This document shows positions 16,699-27,990 of a stretch of DNA of 64,000 bases, in pieces; position 1 is the stretch's first letter, and each line of letters begins with the position of its first letter. Below the pieces are notes generated by a model, which saw nothing but the letters and a program-made list of their open reading frames with translations, did no database searches and had not been told where the DNA came from. The position numbers were made by a program, and so were the translations under genes. The DNA lies in contig NZ_LOHX01000292.1 of assembly GCF_001559775.1 (NCBI RefSeq), forward strand, positions 1 to 64,000. Reading direction: 5' to 3'. The stretch comes from Streptobacillus felis. GTDB taxonomy: Bacteria; Fusobacteriota; Fusobacteriia; Fusobacteriales; Leptotrichiaceae.

Positions 16699-18210
16699 AT
16701 GGATAAATTAATTAGATTAAAAGAAATATTAGAAAAGAATAGAGCTTATCAACATGCTATGACTATTTTATCTTGGGATTTAGAGACTGAAGCCCCTGTA
16801 AATGCTGCATTAAGTATATCTAAAACTTTAGGAGCTCTGTCTGAGCTTTCTTATTTAACTTTAGTTAATGATGAAGTAAGAGATATAGTATATGGTGTAG
16901 ATATTAATACACTAAATGAAATTGATAAAAAACTAATATTAAATTTAAGAAAAAATATATTTGATAAGATGAGTAAAATACCAGTAGATGTTTATTCTAA
17001 ATATTCAGAACTTGGAACTATGTCTACACAAAAATGGGGAGAAGCAAAGAGAACTAATAATTTAGAAATTTATGCTCCTTATCTAGAAGAAGTAATAAAA
17101 TATAATAAAGATTTTATTAAATATAGAGGTTATGAAGGACATCCATATAATCTATTATTAAGTGATTATGAAAATGAATTAACAGTAGAAATAGTTGATG
17201 AATTCTTCAAAAATATAAAAGATGAATTAACACCTTTTATTAAAGAAGTAATAACAAAGAAAAGAGAAGAATTAAAAGATATTAAAGCTAGATTTTTATC
17301 TAAACCTTATCCTATAGATAAGCAAAAAGAATTATCAAAAGAAATCTCTGAAATATTAAAATATGACTATAATTCAGGAGTTATAAAAGAAAGTGAACAT
17401 CCATTTACTACAAGTACTAGTAATAAAGATGTAAGAATAACAACACATTATTATGAAAATGATCCGCTTTCTGCAATTTACTCTACTATACATGAAACAG
17501 GACATGCACTTTATGAGCAACAAATCTCAGATGAATATCAAGATAATTTCCTAGGAAATGGAGTATCTATGGGTATACATGAATCTCAATCAAGAATTTT
17601 TGAAAACATGTTCTGTAAAAATGATAGCTTCACTAAAGTAATATATGACTTATTAGATAAATACTTTGGTGTTGAAATTACTTTAGATGAATTTAAATTA
17701 CTATTAAATGAAGTAAATACTTCATTAATAAGAGTAGAAGCTGATGAATTAACTTATCCTATACATGTAATGATAAGATATGAATTAGAAAAAGAAATAT
17801 TTAGTGATTTAGAAAAAATGGAAAATGCAGAAGAAATTGCTAAAAAATGGGCAGATAAATATGAAGAATATTTAGGTGTAAGACCTAAGACTTATTCTGA
17901 AGGAATATTACAAGATGTACATTGGTCTCAAGGTTCATTTGGATATTTCTCATCTTATGCTTTAGGTTCTGCATACTCAGCACAAATATATAAAGCCATG
18001 GAAAAAGATGTAGATATAAATAAAGATTTAGCAGATAGTAATTTTGAAAACATAAATAATTGGCTAAAAGAAAAAATTCATCAGTTTGGATCATTTAAAG
18101 ATCCTAAAGATGTAATTTTAAATGCAACGGGAGAAGAATTTAATTCTAAATATTATGTAGATTATTTAAAAAATAAATTTGCTAAGATTTATGGTGTAGA
18201 GGTGAAATAA
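16699..18210 (+). CDS. M32 family (thermostable/Taq-type) metallocarboxypeptidase
   Basis: A 503-residue zinc carboxypeptidase, cytoplasmic, trimming C-terminal residues from peptides. The zinc site HETGH is at residues 265-269 and the third ligand is in GIHESQSRIFENM (E295). The M32-specific segments WDLETEAPVNA and GVRPKTYSEGILQDVHWSQGSFGYF are present. It is the usual length for the family and has a GGAGAAGGTGAT ribosome binding region. The stop TAA shares one base with the start of the aminopeptidase gene, so the two peptidases are cotranscribed. Confidence 0.95.
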   Translation: MDKLIRLKEILEKNRAYQHAMTILSWDLETEAPVNAALSISKTLGALSELSYLTLVNDEVRDIVYGVDINTLNEIDKKLILNLRKNIFDKMSKIPVDVYSKYSELGTMSTQKWGEAKRTNNLEIYAPYLEEVIKYNKDFIKYRGYEGHPYNLLLSDYENELTVEIVDEFFKNIKDELTPFIKEVITKKREELKDIKARFLSKPYPIDKQKELSKEISEILKYDYNSGVIKESEHPFTTSTSNKDVRITTHYYENDPLSAIYSTIHETGHALYEQQISDEYQDNFLGNGVSMGIHESQSRIFENMFCKNDSFTKVIYDLLDKYFGVEITLDEFKLLLNEVNTSLIRVEADELTYPIHVMIRYELEKEIFSDLEKMENAEEIAKKWADKYEEYLGVRPKTYSEGILQDVHWSQGSFGYFSSYALGSAYSAQIYKAMEKDVDINKDLADSNFENINNWLKEKIHQFGSFKDPKDVILNATGEEFNSKYYVDYLKNKFAKIYGVEVK

Positions 18211-19547
18211 TGAATAATAAAAAGTTAAAAGATGAGTTTCACGATTTAGAAATTAAAAGTTTTGCAAGAGAAATGATAGAATTTATAGATGATTCACCTA
18301 GTACATATCATGTTGTAGGTAATTGTTCTACTATACTTACAGAAAATAGTTTTGAAAGACTTGAGCCTACAGAAAAATGGGAATTAAAAAAAGGTGGAAA
18401 ATATTTTGTCAAAAGATCAAATTCAACTATAGTTGCATTTACTATAGGTGAAAAACTAGATGTAAGTAAAGGATTTAAAATATTTGGCTCTCATACAGAT
18501 TCTCCAGGATTTAGAATCAAACCTAATCCTGTTATGACAGTAAATGGTGTAATAAGATTAAATACAGAAGTTTATGGAGGACCTATATTAAATACTTAGT
18601 TTGATAGACCTTTATCTATAGCAGGTAGAGTAGTAGTAAGAACTAATGATATTTTCAGGCCTAAAACTATGAAAATTAAAATAGATGAACCTATACTTAC
18701 TATACCTAATTTAGCTATACATCAAAATAGAGAAGTTAATAACGGAGTTAAAATAGATAGACAAAATGATACTTTACCTATAGTAGGTTTAGTAAATGAA
18801 AGTTTTGAAAAAGATGAATTCTTATTAAACTTAATTTCTGAAAAATGCAAAATAAAGAAAGAAGATATATTAGATTTTGATCTTTATGTTTATGCAACAG
18901 AAAAAGGTAGTTTAGTAGGTTTAAATCAAGAATTTATTTCAGCTCCTAAACTTGATAATTTAGTTTCTGTATATTCTGGATTATTAGGACTTGTTGAAGC
19001 TGAAAATGCTGATAACCAGATTAATGTATTTGTAGGATTTGATAATGAAGAAATAGGTTCAGCTACTAAACAAGGAGCAGATTCTAATTATTTATCTAAT
19101 GTATTAGAAAGAATAATTTATTCTTTAGGAATGGATAGAAATACATTCTTAACTATGCTTTCTTCATCATTTATACTTTCAGCAGATGGTGCACATGCAG
19201 CACATCCTGCATACTTAGGTAAAAGTGATCCTACAAATCTAGGAAAACTTAATGATGGAGTTCAAATAAAAATAAGTGCAAATCAAAGATATACATCAGA
19301 TGGTTTCTCCATATCTGTTGTAAAACAAATTATAGAAGGTACTGATATTAAAATACAATTTTTTGTAAATCAATCAAATGAAGTTGGAGGTTCAACTATA
19401 GGACCAATATCGTCAACACACTTAGATATAGATTCAATAGATTTAGGTGTACCAATGTTAGCTATGCATTCGGTAAGAGAATTATGTGGAGTACATGATT
19501 TATTTTATCTTAAAGAATTAGCTAAAGAATTTTTCAGTAAAAATTAA
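18210..19547 (+). pseudogene. M18 family aminopeptidase interrupted by an in-frame TAG
   Basis: The two halves lie in one frame and together make a complete M18 (DAP/aspartyl aminopeptidase-like) zinc exopeptidase of 445 codons. The only lesion is TAG at 18597-18599 (codon 130), exactly where the family has the Trp of NTWFDRPLS, so TGG has apparently become TAG. Catalytic regions survive on both sides: FGSHTDSPGFRI before it, and DNEEIGS, SADGAHAAHP and PMLAMHSVREL after it. The second part could be initiated at ATG 18669, but alone it would lack the first zinc ligand. Other genes here use TAG as a stop, so general recoding is unlikely. A recent nonsense mutation, a strain polymorphism or a base-calling error are the options. 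Confidence 0.88.
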
Positions 19548-23208: not shown

Positions 23209-23228
23209 TACCTAGGTACTATTTTATT
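23201..23228. terminator. Bidirectional palindromic terminator
   Basis: AAAATAGTACC and GGTACTATTTT form a perfect stem (23202-23225) overlapping the lipoprotein stop codon. On the other strand it follows the small membrane protein stop at 23224. Confidence 0.75.
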
Positions 23229-23370
23229 TTATTAATAAATATAAGACAATTACAATTATTAATAATATAAATCTATAAATTATTTTTTTGAAAATTGGAA
23301 ATATTAATGGAAGTCCATTAAGTACTATTAAAAAAGTGATGAAAATAATTAAATCTTTGTGTTCTTTCAT
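23224..23370 (-). CDS. Very small membrane protein (48 aa), unknown
   Basis: A 48-codon frame on the minus strand starts at ATG 23370-23368 with AAAGGAG five bases upstream and ends in TAA at the palindromic terminator. The product (MKEHKDLIIFITFLIVLNGL at the start, LLIIVIVLYLLIK at the end) would be two hydrophobic helices joined by a short basic turn (FKKIIYR). A plausible promoter, TTGAAT, 17 bases, TATATA with a TGA extension, lies at 23429-23401. Promoter, ribosome binding site, frame and terminator together support a real gene; no family is recognised. Confidence 0.55.
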   Translation of the reverse strand: MKEHKDLIIFITFLIVLNGLPLIFPIFKKIIYRFILLIIVIVLYLLIK

Positions 23371-23400
23371 GTTTACTCCTTTGAAAAAATATATATTTAA

Positions 23401-23467
23401 TATATATCATTTTTTAATTTACAATTCAATGTTTTTCCTATTTTTTTACATTAATCTATGGTATAAT
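23401..23467. promoter_or_regulatory. Divergent promoters
   Basis: Minus strand: TTGAAT (23429-23424), 17 bases, TATATA (23406-23401) for the 48-residue protein. Plus strand: extended -10 TGGTATAAT ending at 23467 with a weak T-rich -35, for the TPR-DUF4037 gene. Confidence 0.5.
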
Positions 23468-23496
23468 TTAAATAAATCAACTTAAAGGATGTAGAT

Positions 23497-25272
23497 ATGG
23501 TTAATAAATTTGATGAATTGATTAATGAAAGAAAAGAATTTCAAAGAAAATCAGACGGTGTGTCTGAAGTTAAAATTTTACGTGAAATAGTTAAGATGGC
23601 TAAAGATTTTTATGGTGAAATGTCAAATGAGTATATATATTATCTTAATGAATTAGGTGGTTCTGCTAAATATATAGGAGAATATGAATTAGGTATAAAA
23701 AGCTTAGAAGAAGCACTTTCTTTAATAGAAAAAAGAGAGGGTAGAAGATCGGTTGCTTATGGTACCTCTCTTTTAAATATAGCTGAAGTATATAGATTTA
23801 GAGGAGATTTAGATAAAATAGAAAAAATATATTTAGAAGTTTTATCTGTTTTTGATGAAAACAAGATGCAAAAAGAATATATTTATGCTGGACTTTGTAA
23901 TAACATTGGTATTTTTTATCAAAATACATCAAGGGTTAGTGAAGCTATATCTTATCATGAAAAAAGTTTAAATATATTAGTTGATATGCCAGAACATTTA
24001 GTTGAACTTGCAACTACATATAATAATCTAGTTATGCCATATAAAGAAATAGGAGAAATGAAAAAGGCATATTCAAATTTAGAAAATGCTTTAGAAATTT
24101 ATGCAGCTACTTTAGGTAAGAATCATTCTATGTATGGAGCAGCATTAAATAATAAGGCTATACTTAAATTTGAAGAAGGAGATTTTGTTAGTGCTTTAAA
24201 TATATTTGAAACTGCATTAGATATTACAAAAAAATCTTTTGGAGAAAATAGTTTAAATTATCAAAATCTTTTATCTAATGTTGAATATATAAGAGATTTG
24301 ATTAAGAAAACACAAAAAGAAGTTGATATAGAAGTTACTAGTGATTCAAAACTTATTGATATTTCTAGAGAATATACTAAGAAATATATATTACCAAAAA
24401 TTAAAGAGAAAAATGAGGAACTATTAAGTAAGATTACCATAGGCCTTATTGGTGAAGGTTCAGAAGTAATAGGATATGATGATGAATATTCAAAAGATCA
24501 TGATTATACTTTTATGCCCTTATTATTATTAAATAATGAAGATTATGAAAAATATTCTAAGGAATTAGAAGACATTTTACTATCTCTACCTCAGGAATTT
24601 TTAGGAATAAAACATGTTAATAATGATGTTATTGCTGAAAGACGTGGAGTAAAAAAAATAGGAGATTATTTATATAAATTTATAGGTAAAGAAGAAGCAA
24701 ACTTAACTATAGAAGATTATAGAAAAATACCAGAATATGCGTTGTTTGCATTAACTAGTGGAGAAATATTTTATGCAGGTAATGATGAATTTACATCTAT
24801 AATTCAAACTTTAATATATTATCCAAATATAATTAGAGAAAATAAGATAGCTACAGTATGTACACGTATTGCACAAAGTGGACAATATAACTATTTAAGA
24901 TTAATGAAAAGAGAGGATAAGATAGCTGCTAATATGGCTAAAAGTGTATTTATAGAAAATGTAATACATTTAGTATACTTATTAAATTCTAAATATATGC
25001 CTTTCTATAAATGGTCATCTCGTGGTCTTAAAGATTTACCTATTTTAGGTAAAGATATGGAAAAAAGAATACTTGAATTGATTGACAATACAGTACTTGA
25101 TAAGCATCAAATGTCTAATAGAATTGAAGAAATATGCTATTTCCTTGTAGAAGAAATTAAAAAACAAGGACTTAGTAAAGAAAAAGGATATTTTATGGTA
25201 AATCATGCTGCATATATACAAAAAAATATAGATGATGAATTTTTAAAATTATGGACACCTTTTGAAGATTAG
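23497..25272 (+). CDS. Tetratricopeptide-repeat protein with DUF4037 (nucleotidyltransferase-like) domain
   Basis: A 591-residue cytoplasmic protein. Residues about 30-270 are tandem TPR helices (ISYHEKSLNILVDMPEHL, YSNLENALEIYAATLG, ALNIFETALDITKKSFGENS). From about 290 a DUF4037-type domain begins, with GEGSEVIGYDDEYSKDHDY at 319-337. This resembles the GS-x-D-x-D nucleotide-binding turn of nucleotidyltransferase folds, although the usual GS is altered to GEGS. The rest is helical. The next gene, 8 bases on, encodes a DUF4125 protein, and I recall these two families as frequent neighbours. The role is unknown; a nucleotidyl-modifying activity is a fold-based guess. Confidence 0.78.
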   Translation: MVNKFDELINERKEFQRKSDGVSEVKILREIVKMAKDFYGEMSNEYIYYLNELGGSAKYIGEYELGIKSLEEALSLIEKREGRRSVAYGTSLLNIAEVYRFRGDLDKIEKIYLEVLSVFDENKMQKEYIYAGLCNNIGIFYQNTSRVSEAISYHEKSLNILVDMPEHLVELATTYNNLVMPYKEIGEMKKAYSNLENALEIYAATLGKNHSMYGAALNNKAILKFEEGDFVSALNIFETALDITKKSFGENSLNYQNLLSNVEYIRDLIKKTQKEVDIEVTSDSKLIDISREYTKKYILPKIKEKNEELLSKITIGLIGEGSEVIGYDDEYSKDHDYTFMPLLLLNNEDYEKYSKELEDILLSLPQEFLGIKHVNNDVIAERRGVKKIGDYLYKFIGKEEANLTIEDYRKIPEYALFALTSGEIFYAGNDEFTSIIQTLIYYPNIIRENKIATVCTRIAQSGQYNYLRLMKREDKIAANMAKSVFIENVIHLVYLLNSKYMPFYKWSSRGLKDLPILGKDMEKRILELIDNTVLDKHQMSNRIEEICYFLVEEIKKQGLSKEKGYFMVNHAAYIQKNIDDEFLKLWTPFED

Positions 25273-25280
25273 GAGAAGTT

Positions 25281-25895
25281 ATGGAAAGAAATGATTTGAT
25301 AAAAGAGATTATAGACAGAGAATGGGAAATGTTTACTGTTCTTAAGAATACAGGAGGACCTGCAGAATGTCAAAATAATAAACCTGAATTTATAGTTATG
25401 AGAAAAGGACAATGGGATAATTTGCCTATAAATATATTACAAAGTTACTTAATAGATTTAAAAAAAGCAGAAGAAATAGGTAGAAATTTACTTGAAGAAA
25501 AATATATAAGAATGATGGAATTTTCAGCTCCTGAAGAATTTGAAGGTGTAAAAGATTTGCTTCCTGCATTATCACCGGGTGTAGAAGTATTGATAAAAAA
25601 AATAGAAAAAACATATCTTGCATGGGGAGATGAATTTGAGGCAAAATTCCCTAAATTCTCTAAACTATGTAGACCTTTAAGAAGTGAAGGGGATCAACCT
25701 GAAAGAGCTTCAGTTCAAACGTATTTAAGAGGAGAACTTTGTAGTTATTCACTTAAAACAATACTTTTTTACTCAGATTATATAGAAGATTGTGTTAAAA
25801 AAGGAATAAATTTAATTTATGAAACACATAGTGAAGTTGTAAAAATGAAAGGATTTGAATCTATAGAAGCAGTAGAAGTGTCGCTTGTAATTTAA
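25281..25895 (+). CDS. DUF4125 family protein
   Basis: A 204-residue soluble protein with the DUF4125 pattern: IIDREWEMFTVLKNTGGPAE followed by CQNN, FIVMRKGQW, then SPGVEVLIKKIEKTYLAWG, CRPLRSEGDQP and a helical end. There is no signal peptide or membrane segment. The TAGGAG ribosome binding site overlaps the stop of the TPR-DUF4037 gene, so the two are translated together. Biochemistry is unknown; the tight coupling suggests a complex or substrate-enzyme pair. Confidence 0.75.
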   Translation: MERNDLIKEIIDREWEMFTVLKNTGGPAECQNNKPEFIVMRKGQWDNLPINILQSYLIDLKKAEEIGRNLLEEKYIRMMEFSAPEEFEGVKDLLPALSPGVEVLIKKIEKTYLAWGDEFEAKFPKFSKLCRPLRSEGDQPERASVQTYLRGELCSYSLKTILFYSDYIEDCVKKGINLIYETHSEVVKMKGFESIEAVEVSLVI

Positions 25896-25913
25896 TATGA
25901 AATATGTTAAAAT
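25885..25913 (+). promoter_or_regulatory. Promoter of the restriction-modification genes
   Basis: TTGTAA (25885-25890, inside the DUF4125 gene), a 17-base spacer and TAAAAT (25908-25913) with a TGT extension. It is the same layout as the pnp promoter. Confidence 0.5.
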
Positions 25914-25947
25914 AATACAATAAAATTAATAAATAAAGGTGATTGAC

Positions 25948-26838
25948 ATGTTGATTAATTATGAAATTTTTAAACTAAAATTAGAAAATAAAATTAAAAA
26001 AAATCAAGAATTTTACAATGAACTACTAATAAACACTTTAGATAATCCCAAAAGATATATTGGGAATTTCAGAATTAGTAGTGCAGAGACTAAATTAATT
26101 CAGAATGTCACACAGAGTAATGAAATAAAATTTGGGGATTTTTTGGAGGATATTATTACAGACTATATTTCGATTATGGGATATAATAATTTAGAAAAAA
26201 AAATTGGTTTTGGTGAAGACGGAAGTTTTCTTAGTTCAGATCAAATTTTTTTAGATAAAAATTCAATAATATATTTAATAGAACAAAAAGTTAGAGACGA
26301 TCATGATAGTACAAAGAAAAGAGGGCAGATAAATAACTTTATAAATAAAATTAATACTTTAATAGAAAAGTATCCAAACAATAATATAATTGCAAGTATG
26401 TGGTTTATTGATGATATGTTGAAAAAAAATAGAAAATATTACCAAGAGGAAATAGAAAAAATAAATTTAAATAATACAGAAATAAAATTATTCTATGGGA
26501 AAGATATTTTCGAATTTTTATTTGATAGGTTGGATGTTTGGGATGAACTTATATCACATATACTTAAATTTAAATTAGAAGAAGAAATAGCTTTAAGTAT
26601 ACCAGATTTTGATATGAGTGAAGAAATTTTTAATGCACTTAAATTTATGAAAAAAATAAGTGAAATGAGTAAAGAAGAAATAAAAAATAATAATAGATAT
26701 AAGAAGATTAAAAGATTATATAAAAATTTATTTTCAAATAAACCTGATTATGTAGAGTTAAGAAAACTATTATTTAAAAATGGATATAATTTAAATAGAA
26801 TTGAAAAATTTAAAGTGGAAGTTGATTTAATAAAATAA
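25948..26838 (+). CDS. Type II restriction endonuclease (PD-(D/E)XK type), probable HinfI-like specificity
   Basis: A 296-residue protein directly before a HinfI-like methyltransferase. D98 (in SSDQIFLDKN), 13 intervening residues, and E112-Q-K114 (YLIEQKVRDDHDSTKKRGQ) give the D-x(n)-E-x-K metal site of PD-(D/E)XK nucleases. The N-terminal and C-terminal parts are helical and Lys-rich. AAGGTGAT favours ATG 25948 over the in-frame GTG at 25939. The target is inferred from the methyltransferase (GANTC); the endonuclease itself was recognised by context and active-site pattern, not by full-length similarity. Confidence 0.75.
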   Translation: MLINYEIFKLKLENKIKKNQEFYNELLINTLDNPKRYIGNFRISSAETKLIQNVTQSNEIKFGDFLEDIITDYISIMGYNNLEKKIGFGEDGSFLSSDQIFLDKNSIIYLIEQKVRDDHDSTKKRGQINNFINKINTLIEKYPNNNIIASMWFIDDMLKKNRKYYQEEIEKINLNNTEIKLFYGKDIFEFLFDRLDVWDELISHILKFKLEEEIALSIPDFDMSEEIFNALKFMKKISEMSKEEIKNNNRYKKIKRLYKNLFSNKPDYVELRKLLFKNGYNLNRIEKFKVEVDLIK

Positions 26839-26847
26839 GGTGAAAAT

Positions 26848-27954
26848 ATGAAAAAAAATACATTTCCTATAAATAAAATAAATACAGTAAAATTAGGCGA
26901 TAGCATTGAAGAATTAAAATTAATTCCGGATAATTCAGTAGATTTAATTTTTGCAGATCCACCCTATAATATGCAATTAGATGGTATATTGAAAAGGGTC
27001 GATGGTTCAGAGTTTAAAGGTGTTGAAGGTTCTAAATGGGATGAGTTTGAAAGTATTGAAGATTATAAAAAATTTACATATGAATGGTTAAAAGAAGCTA
27101 AGCGTATATTGAAAAAAAATAAGTCTTCTTTATGGGTAATAGGTTCGTTTCAAAATATATATTTGGTTGGAAATATTTTACAAGAATTAGGATTTTGGAT
27201 AATAAATGATGTTATTTGGTCCAAAACAAACCCAACTCCAAATTTTATGGGTACAAAATTTACTAATAAACAAGAAACATTACTATGGGCAACTCCTTCA
27301 AAAAAAACAAAATATACATTTAATTATAAGACTATGAAAGAATTAAATGGTGGGAAACAAATGACTAGTATTTGGGAAATACCAGTTTCTACAGGTAATG
27401 AACGCCTTAAGGATAATAATGGAGAAAAGTTACATCCTACACAAAAACCAGAAAAATTATTATACAACATTATTATTTCTTCAACTCAAAAAGGAGATTT
27501 AATATTAGATCCTTTTTCAGGCACTGGAACTACAGCGGCTTTAGCTAAAAGATTAGGAAGGAAATATTTTGCAATTGAGAAAGATACAAAATATTATAAA
27601 TATTCAGTTGAACGTATTAATTTAGAAATAGAAAAAAGTGATGATTATATAAACGCAAAATTTGATATAAAACCACCGATTGTTAAGTTTAAGGAATTAG
27701 TAGAGAAACAATATATTTTTAATAATGAAAAAGTATATTTTAAGAAAACAGAACTTTATGCTAATATATCGGAAGAGAAAGAATTATATTATGAGGGTAA
27801 ACACTATGGTATTTCTAAATTAGGAGGTATTTTGAGTGGAATTGAATCAAATGTTAATGGTTGGGAAGTGTGGTATGTAGAAAGAAATGGGGAAAAAGTA
27901 TCCATTTCAGATATACGTGATGAATATAGAGATAAAGAATTAAATTTTAAATAA
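26848..27954 (+). CDS. Adenine-N6 DNA methyltransferase, M.HinfI/CcrM-like (probable GANTC)
   Basis: A 368-residue beta-class methyltransferase: the catalytic DPPYN at residues 37-41 comes before the AdoMet motif DPFSGTGTT at 221-229. LWVIGSFQNIYLVGN, WSKTNPTPNFMGT and HPTQKPEKLLY closely match what I remember of M.HinfI, which methylates the adenine of GANTC. The C-terminal 100 residues (KPPIVKFKELVEKQYIF to the end, with NGWEVWYVERNGEKVSISDIR) form a RAMA-like domain as in CcrM and M.HinfI. It lies 9 bases after the nuclease gene, so it protects against that enzyme. Confidence 0.9.
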   Translation: MKKNTFPINKINTVKLGDSIEELKLIPDNSVDLIFADPPYNMQLDGILKRVDGSEFKGVEGSKWDEFESIEDYKKFTYEWLKEAKRILKKNKSSLWVIGSFQNIYLVGNILQELGFWIINDVIWSKTNPTPNFMGTKFTNKQETLLWATPSKKTKYTFNYKTMKELNGGKQMTSIWEIPVSTGNERLKDNNGEKLHPTQKPEKLLYNIIISSTQKGDLILDPFSGTGTTAALAKRLGRKYFAIEKDTKYYKYSVERINLEIEKSDDYINAKFDIKPPIVKFKELVEKQYIFNNEKVYFKKTELYANISEEKELYYEGKHYGISKLGGILSGIESNVNGWEVWYVERNGEKVSISDIRDEYRDKELNFK

Positions 27955-27990
27955 TATAGATATGATAAAATTAAATAATTAGGAGGAAAA

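Follow-up and report, generated by a model that had tools for sequence, protein, structure and literature searches.

Two protein families without an assigned function, DUF4037 and DUF4125, are encoded side by side in the genome of Streptobacillus felis, which raises the question of what such a gene pair does for its host. Here, we analysed the pair within a window of 64,000 nucleotides (the whole stretch of DNA under study, contig NZ_LOHX01000292.1). Gene A (23497..25272, plus strand) encodes a protein of 591 amino acids composed of TPR repeats, a nucleotidyltransferase (NTase) and DUF4037, and gene B (25281..25895, plus strand) encodes an all-helical DUF4125 protein of 204 amino acids; both assignments are based on the open reading frame, Pfam and an AF2 model. 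The open reading frame coordinates agree with the original prediction of two genes 8 bases apart, counted from the stop of gene A to the start of gene B. The TPR part of gene A (residues 1-270; 23497..24306, plus strand) matches TPR_12 (2e-27) and has a kinesin-light-chain-like TPR fold. Its DUF4037 domain (PF13228; residues 408-506; 24718..25014, plus strand) was recognised by Pfam with 3.4e-30 and 105.2 bits (cut-off 22.1) and contains a KYMPFYKW motif at residues 499-506. Gene B matches DUF4125 (PF13526) over residues 5-199 with 3.3e-69 and 232.9 bits (cut-off 25). We consider this domain make-up well supported, and the proposed fusion of TPR repeats to an NTase/DUF4037 protein followed by a DUF4125 gene is thereby borne out. 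Both genes occur in single copy in this genome, and among named relatives Streptobacillus notomytis is the closest (83% identity). An extended -10 promoter element TGGTATAAT (23459..23467, plus strand; TGGTATAATTTAAATAAA, with TATAAT at 23462-23467) lies 29 bases 5' of the gene A ATG, and a conserved TG-N-TATAATTTAAATAAA precedes the gene A equivalent at three other Streptobacillus loci (L003, L084, L086). An automatic promoter scan was uninformative by itself (50 found, 38 expected). The idea of a single promoter common to both genes is plausible, and it gains the conserved element as an argument.

Is the central part of gene A a genuine NTase? In the motif region (residues 312-337; 24430..24507, plus strand), supported by positions that are invariant or at least 90% conserved in 41 relatives and by pol-beta homology, G321-S322-x11-D334-H335-D336 fits the canonical hG[GS]x9-13DxD motif of the pol-beta NTase superfamily. 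In the 41 relatives, residues G319, G321, S322, G326, D328, D329, S332, H335 and D336 are invariant and D334 is nearly so. The catalytic motif GS-x11-DHD is intact in 99 of 107 relatives, and its conservation is likewise well supported; the turn had been described as altered, a view that we had to abandon since this is a normal pol-beta motif. Real departures from the canon are found elsewhere in the protein. No acid is conserved in the gene A family at the strand expected to carry the third metal-binding carboxylate, and residue 427, an Asp in 94 of 107 relatives, is Ala in gene A and Ser in S. notomytis. The canonical third Asp is not universal across the pol-beta NTase superfamily. In MntA, the third catalytic carboxylate is D71 (PMC7641770). 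Because the third carboxylate is unconserved and A427 replaces the usual Asp, catalytic activity of gene A is likely, but not certain.

Searched directly against the PDB, the gene A-type NTase profile (A3) gave no match. Alignment with hhalign connected A3 over 241 columns to a second, shorter DUF4037 family, A4 (probability 96.9, E = 1.5e-10). An A4 member scores over the Pfam cut-offs for NTP_transf_2 and Polbeta, and A4 matches the AMPylating antitoxin MntA (E = 0.0016), Tue1 and the lincosamide NTase 3jyy (E = 0.0079) in the PDB, along with weak matches to aminoglycoside NTases. Since A3 aligns with A4 and A4 matches accepted NTases, the gene A domain is, judged by homology, a pol-beta-type NTase. 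Members of A4 (GGSRAGENYDEKSDYD; L163:6916-7692, L164-L179) are short classical NTases unlinked to DUF4125, hosted by Leptotrichiaceae, other Fusobacteriota and Clostridia. The AF2 model of gene A (pLDDT 93.2) has a flexible joint at residues 275-278; nearly all of its 50 listed PDB matches are TPR or other helical-repeat proteins, without a single NTase, as TPR matches swamp the search.

The pair had been called undescribed, which turned out to be too strong. According to a study by Aravind and co-workers from 2013 (PMC3710099), DUF4037 is a HEPN-like C-terminal domain of NTases with occasional TPR fusion. Gene A shares with these PF13228 NTases the same domain, the TPR fusion and a HEPN-like C-terminal domain without RNase motif, whereas the DUF4125 partner, the three-module unit and the metabolic context described below are absent from the table of that study. 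In addition, a paper from 2025 (PMC12583861) reports LrcL (DUF4125) and LrcM (DUF4037) as expressed from a limonene-degradation operon of Syntrophobacteraceae LiM6, with a glycyl radical enzyme at the centre of the study. The same two families thus share one operon there as well, but in a different phylum, and the passage on the pair gives no function and leaves a TPR module unmentioned.

Comparison across genomes changed the picture of a two-protein system. In most other Leptotrichiaceae, a separate TPR gene encoding about 280 amino acids lies directly upstream of the NTase gene, and its product is 40-45% identical to gene A residues ~7-269. TPR-NTase fusions occur in Streptobacillus, in genomes G003 (L092) and G049 (L156), in Peptoniphilus and in others, and three genomes of the class Clostridia encode TPR, NTase and DUF4125 in one protein of 800-930 amino acids (L124, L125, L126). 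As most Leptotrichiaceae encode the TPR part separately and triple fusions exist, the unit consists of three parts, split over three genes in most relatives, and these probably form a complex. Both families are present in 28 of 28 near-complete Leptotrichiaceae genomes, and among 98 sampled Fusobacteriota strong DUF4037 and DUF4125 matches fall into the identical 32 genomes, limited to Leptotrichiaceae and one other genus. Among 293 Clostridia, DUF4125 was found in 12 genomes, strong DUF4037 in 28 and both in 11 (hypergeometric 9e-12, uncorrected for kinship; neither the fusions nor the arrangement repeated on the tree depend on such probabilities). Co-occurrence, adjacency and fusions elsewhere hence agree with the claimed non-random association; we regard the pairing as real on these genomic grounds, and an obligate association of the three modules as well supported. 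The sole DUF4125 genome without DUF4037 among the 12 (G289) has a TPR gene adjoining its DUF4125 (L127). The NTase occurs without DUF4125 and DUF4125 almost always with DUF4037, which marks DUF4125 as the dependent partner of the NTase. Moreover, 17 of the 28 Clostridia with strong DUF4037 do without DUF4125, which therefore cannot be the sole substrate across the family. A second, diverged DUF4125 copy lies across the TPR gene at L030, L035, L040, L043 and L059; where aligned, the copy at L043 lacks an otherwise near-invariant CQ. Co-occurrence, operon order and gene fusion thus tie two Pfam families of unassigned function into one three-module unit, and the two DUFs become a defined biochemical question.

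How could such a unit work? Our best guess is that the unit acts as a house-keeping switch which nucleotidylates a protein linked to fermentation, and in which DUF4125 is the obligate partner or the substrate. We assign a probability of roughly 45% to the full reading, in which the products of genes A and B make up a vertically inherited core complex of three modules that nucleotidylates a protein, the client most likely being a fermentation enzyme. The TPR part would serve as scaffold or sensor for an active pol-beta-type NTase acting with its DUF4125 partner, and the HEPN-like DUF4037 would be the substrate-binding domain of the NTase. Most likely, the GS-x11-DHD site would transfer an NMP (AMP, in all probability) from an NTP to a protein side chain. 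The target might be (i) DUF4125 itself, via its invariant tyrosines Y56, Y75 and Y148, or (ii) a client recruited by the TPR part, in which case DUF4125 would be a subunit for specificity or control. Such a client would most likely be an enzyme of anaerobic fermentation, i.e. a glycyl radical enzyme, its activase or a member of the acyl-CoA/aldehyde branch. Of the originally predicted nucleotidyl-modifying enzyme with TPRs for recognition and a partner protein, the NTase with TPR module and obligate partner has held up; its chemistry and target are what we infer. GlnE and GlnD regulate by nucleotidylating proteins. In them, as in the aminoglycoside NTases and the unit, a HEPN-like helical domain comes after the pol-beta NTase, but no sequence match to the unit was found here beyond the NTase core, and they possess neither TPR nor DUF4125.

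An NTase could also modify small molecules. The unit would then adenylylate a metabolite or antibiotic, with TPR and DUF4125 as stabilising subunits. Aminoglycoside and lincosamide NTases have an equal layout of NTase and helical C-terminal part, the related family A4 matches enzymes of both kinds, and PMC3710099 groups DUF4037 with the aminoglycoside-NTase C-terminal domain. The distribution argues in another direction, as the gene is core to a whole bacterial family rather than sporadic, and together with DUF4125 it was found in one 'plasmid' record only (NZ_CP084075.1, 1137942-1140534), an entry of 2.1 Mb from Fusobacterium vincentii that is possibly mislabelled; among the 98 sampled Fusobacteriota, the pair is confined to Leptotrichiaceae and one other genus. 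Resistance NTases do not usually come with a TPR module or an obligate second protein either. Taken together, we judge an enzyme for small molecules to be unlikely, at about one chance for every four against it.

The suggestion of a fermentation enzyme as client for the nucleotidylating complex comes from gene neighbourhoods, defined as regions within 8 kb around loci that were grouped into 58 clusters at 60% identity. The commonest neighbours (about 100 loci) were genes for microcompartment shell proteins, for glycyl radical enzymes with their activases, and for CoA-linked aldehyde dehydrogenases or AdhE. In 14 of the 58 clusters, a gene for a glycyl radical enzyme or for a microcompartment shell protein was present, rising to 18 when class III ribonucleotide reductase, itself a glycyl radical enzyme, was counted; by our own estimate, a few percent would be expected by chance, since there are few such genes per genome of 2-3 Mb. 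The association is recurrent, not constant. Such neighbourhoods surround DUF4125 in four of the 12 Clostridia genomes (G193, G232, G307, G356), an unbiased sample, and with at least 16 changes of neighbourhood state on the NTase tree they were met repeatedly. In particular, the choline TMA-lyase CutC was identified by the NCBIfam cut-off at L048 and L093, a PFL2-3 family radical enzyme at L004, L010 and L153, and AdhE just upstream at L094, L100 and L101. Both the activity proposed for the unit (nucleotide transfer) and its context among anaerobic radical enzymes can be tested; in some genomes, this context is the gut locus for the TMA-forming choline lyase. An uninterrupted run of TPR, NTase, DUF4125, activase, glycyl radical enzyme and a second TPR gene was observed at L131 (4532-11867). 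Genome-wide, shell genes were found in 7 of 12 DUF4125 genomes of the Clostridia compared to 77 of 293, a weak enrichment (p = 0.017). The comparison of PFL-like genes with the pair across Fusobacteriota was uninformative, as most of these genomes carry PFL-like genes with or without the pair. In the microcompartment reviews examined, the main text names neither DUF4037 nor DUF4125.

The same neighbourhoods would suit a non-catalytic chaperone or assembly factor, in which TPR and DUF4125 assist the folding or loading of glycyl radical enzymes or microcompartment cargo and the NTase domain has turned into a structural nucleotide sensor. The missing third carboxylate and the loss of a DHD residue in a few members (L014, L041, L132, L143) are consistent with this possibility, but retention of DHD and GS in 99 of 107 relatives is above expectation for a dead enzyme, and we hold it to be just as improbable as the enzyme for small molecules. 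Somewhat less probable still is a switch devoted to nucleotidylating glycyl radical enzymes, activases or microcompartment cargo, including choline TMA-lyase. If true, the DUF4125-TPR-NTase unit would inactivate or shield fermentation enzymes that are sensitive to oxygen by covalent modification, a control layer for glycyl radical enzymes and microcompartments without description in the literature examined. As 40 of the 58 clusters, Streptobacillus included, lack such a neighbour, the connection to fermentation may be a single, recruited use of a more general module rather than its basic function, and for Streptobacillus itself this connection is an inference.

But could DUF4125 be a toxin that is neutralised by nucleotidylation, as in HEPN/MNT (type VII) toxin-antitoxin systems? 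In MntA/HepT, the NTase AMPylates a conserved tyrosine of its partner (PMC7641770). The likeness is evident: the NTase gene precedes the partner gene in both cases, the GS-x11-DHD of gene A resembles the GSX10DXD motif of MntA (PMC7641770), and DUF4125 offers its invariant tyrosines. However, among 30 DUF4125 sequences there is no conserved R..H as in the RX4HXY signature. The AF2 model of gene B (pLDDT 94.5) found neither a HEPN fold nor any other PDB match with E <= 0.001 (best E = 1.5), and profile searches gave no DUF4125 homologue in the PDB. As its partner lacks the HEPN signature, the unit is not a member of the MntA/HepT system, from which it also differs by an NTase with its own HEPN-like and TPR domains and by its status as a core gene set. 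Presence in all 28 near-complete family genomes, a fixed arrangement, vertical inheritance and the absence of DUF4125 from phage and viral contigs also speak against a toxin, and DUF4125 can lack an adjoining NTase gene, with no DUF4037 at all in the genome of L127. We thus consider a toxin-antitoxin function improbable, clearly more so than the readings above.

A restriction endonuclease gene (25939-26838) and a DNA methyltransferase gene (26848-27954) lie directly downstream of gene B in the window, and a role in defence had been envisaged for the pair. In the interval between DUF4125 and thrS (25896-27990), these genes are present in this genome only; at the four other Streptobacillus loci (L003, L084, L085, L086), thrS follows DUF4125 after about 50 bases, and we thus interpret the restriction-modification genes as a local insertion. 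An anti-phage pair in a defence island is largely refuted and highly improbable, as its neighbour is local, PADLOC matched neither gene A nor gene B, phage and viral collections hold no DUF4125 record and the pair is core across the whole family, which removes a false lead. An origin from phages or plasmids was rejected as well: besides the missing phage or viral DUF4125, NTase-like matches were confined to one unannotated 'Bacteriophage sp.' record of 114 kb and nine plasmid records, and were mostly remote.

Two further observations concern the surroundings of the pair. At the four other Streptobacillus loci, an open reading frame of about 1000 amino acids lies between a META-domain gene and gene A, and the corresponding interval in the window (23209-23496) has none. 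Further upstream, at 18210-19547, consecutive open reading frames of 129 and 292 amino acids in different frames resemble a single broken aminopeptidase gene, and the break looks like a frameshift or an assembly error.
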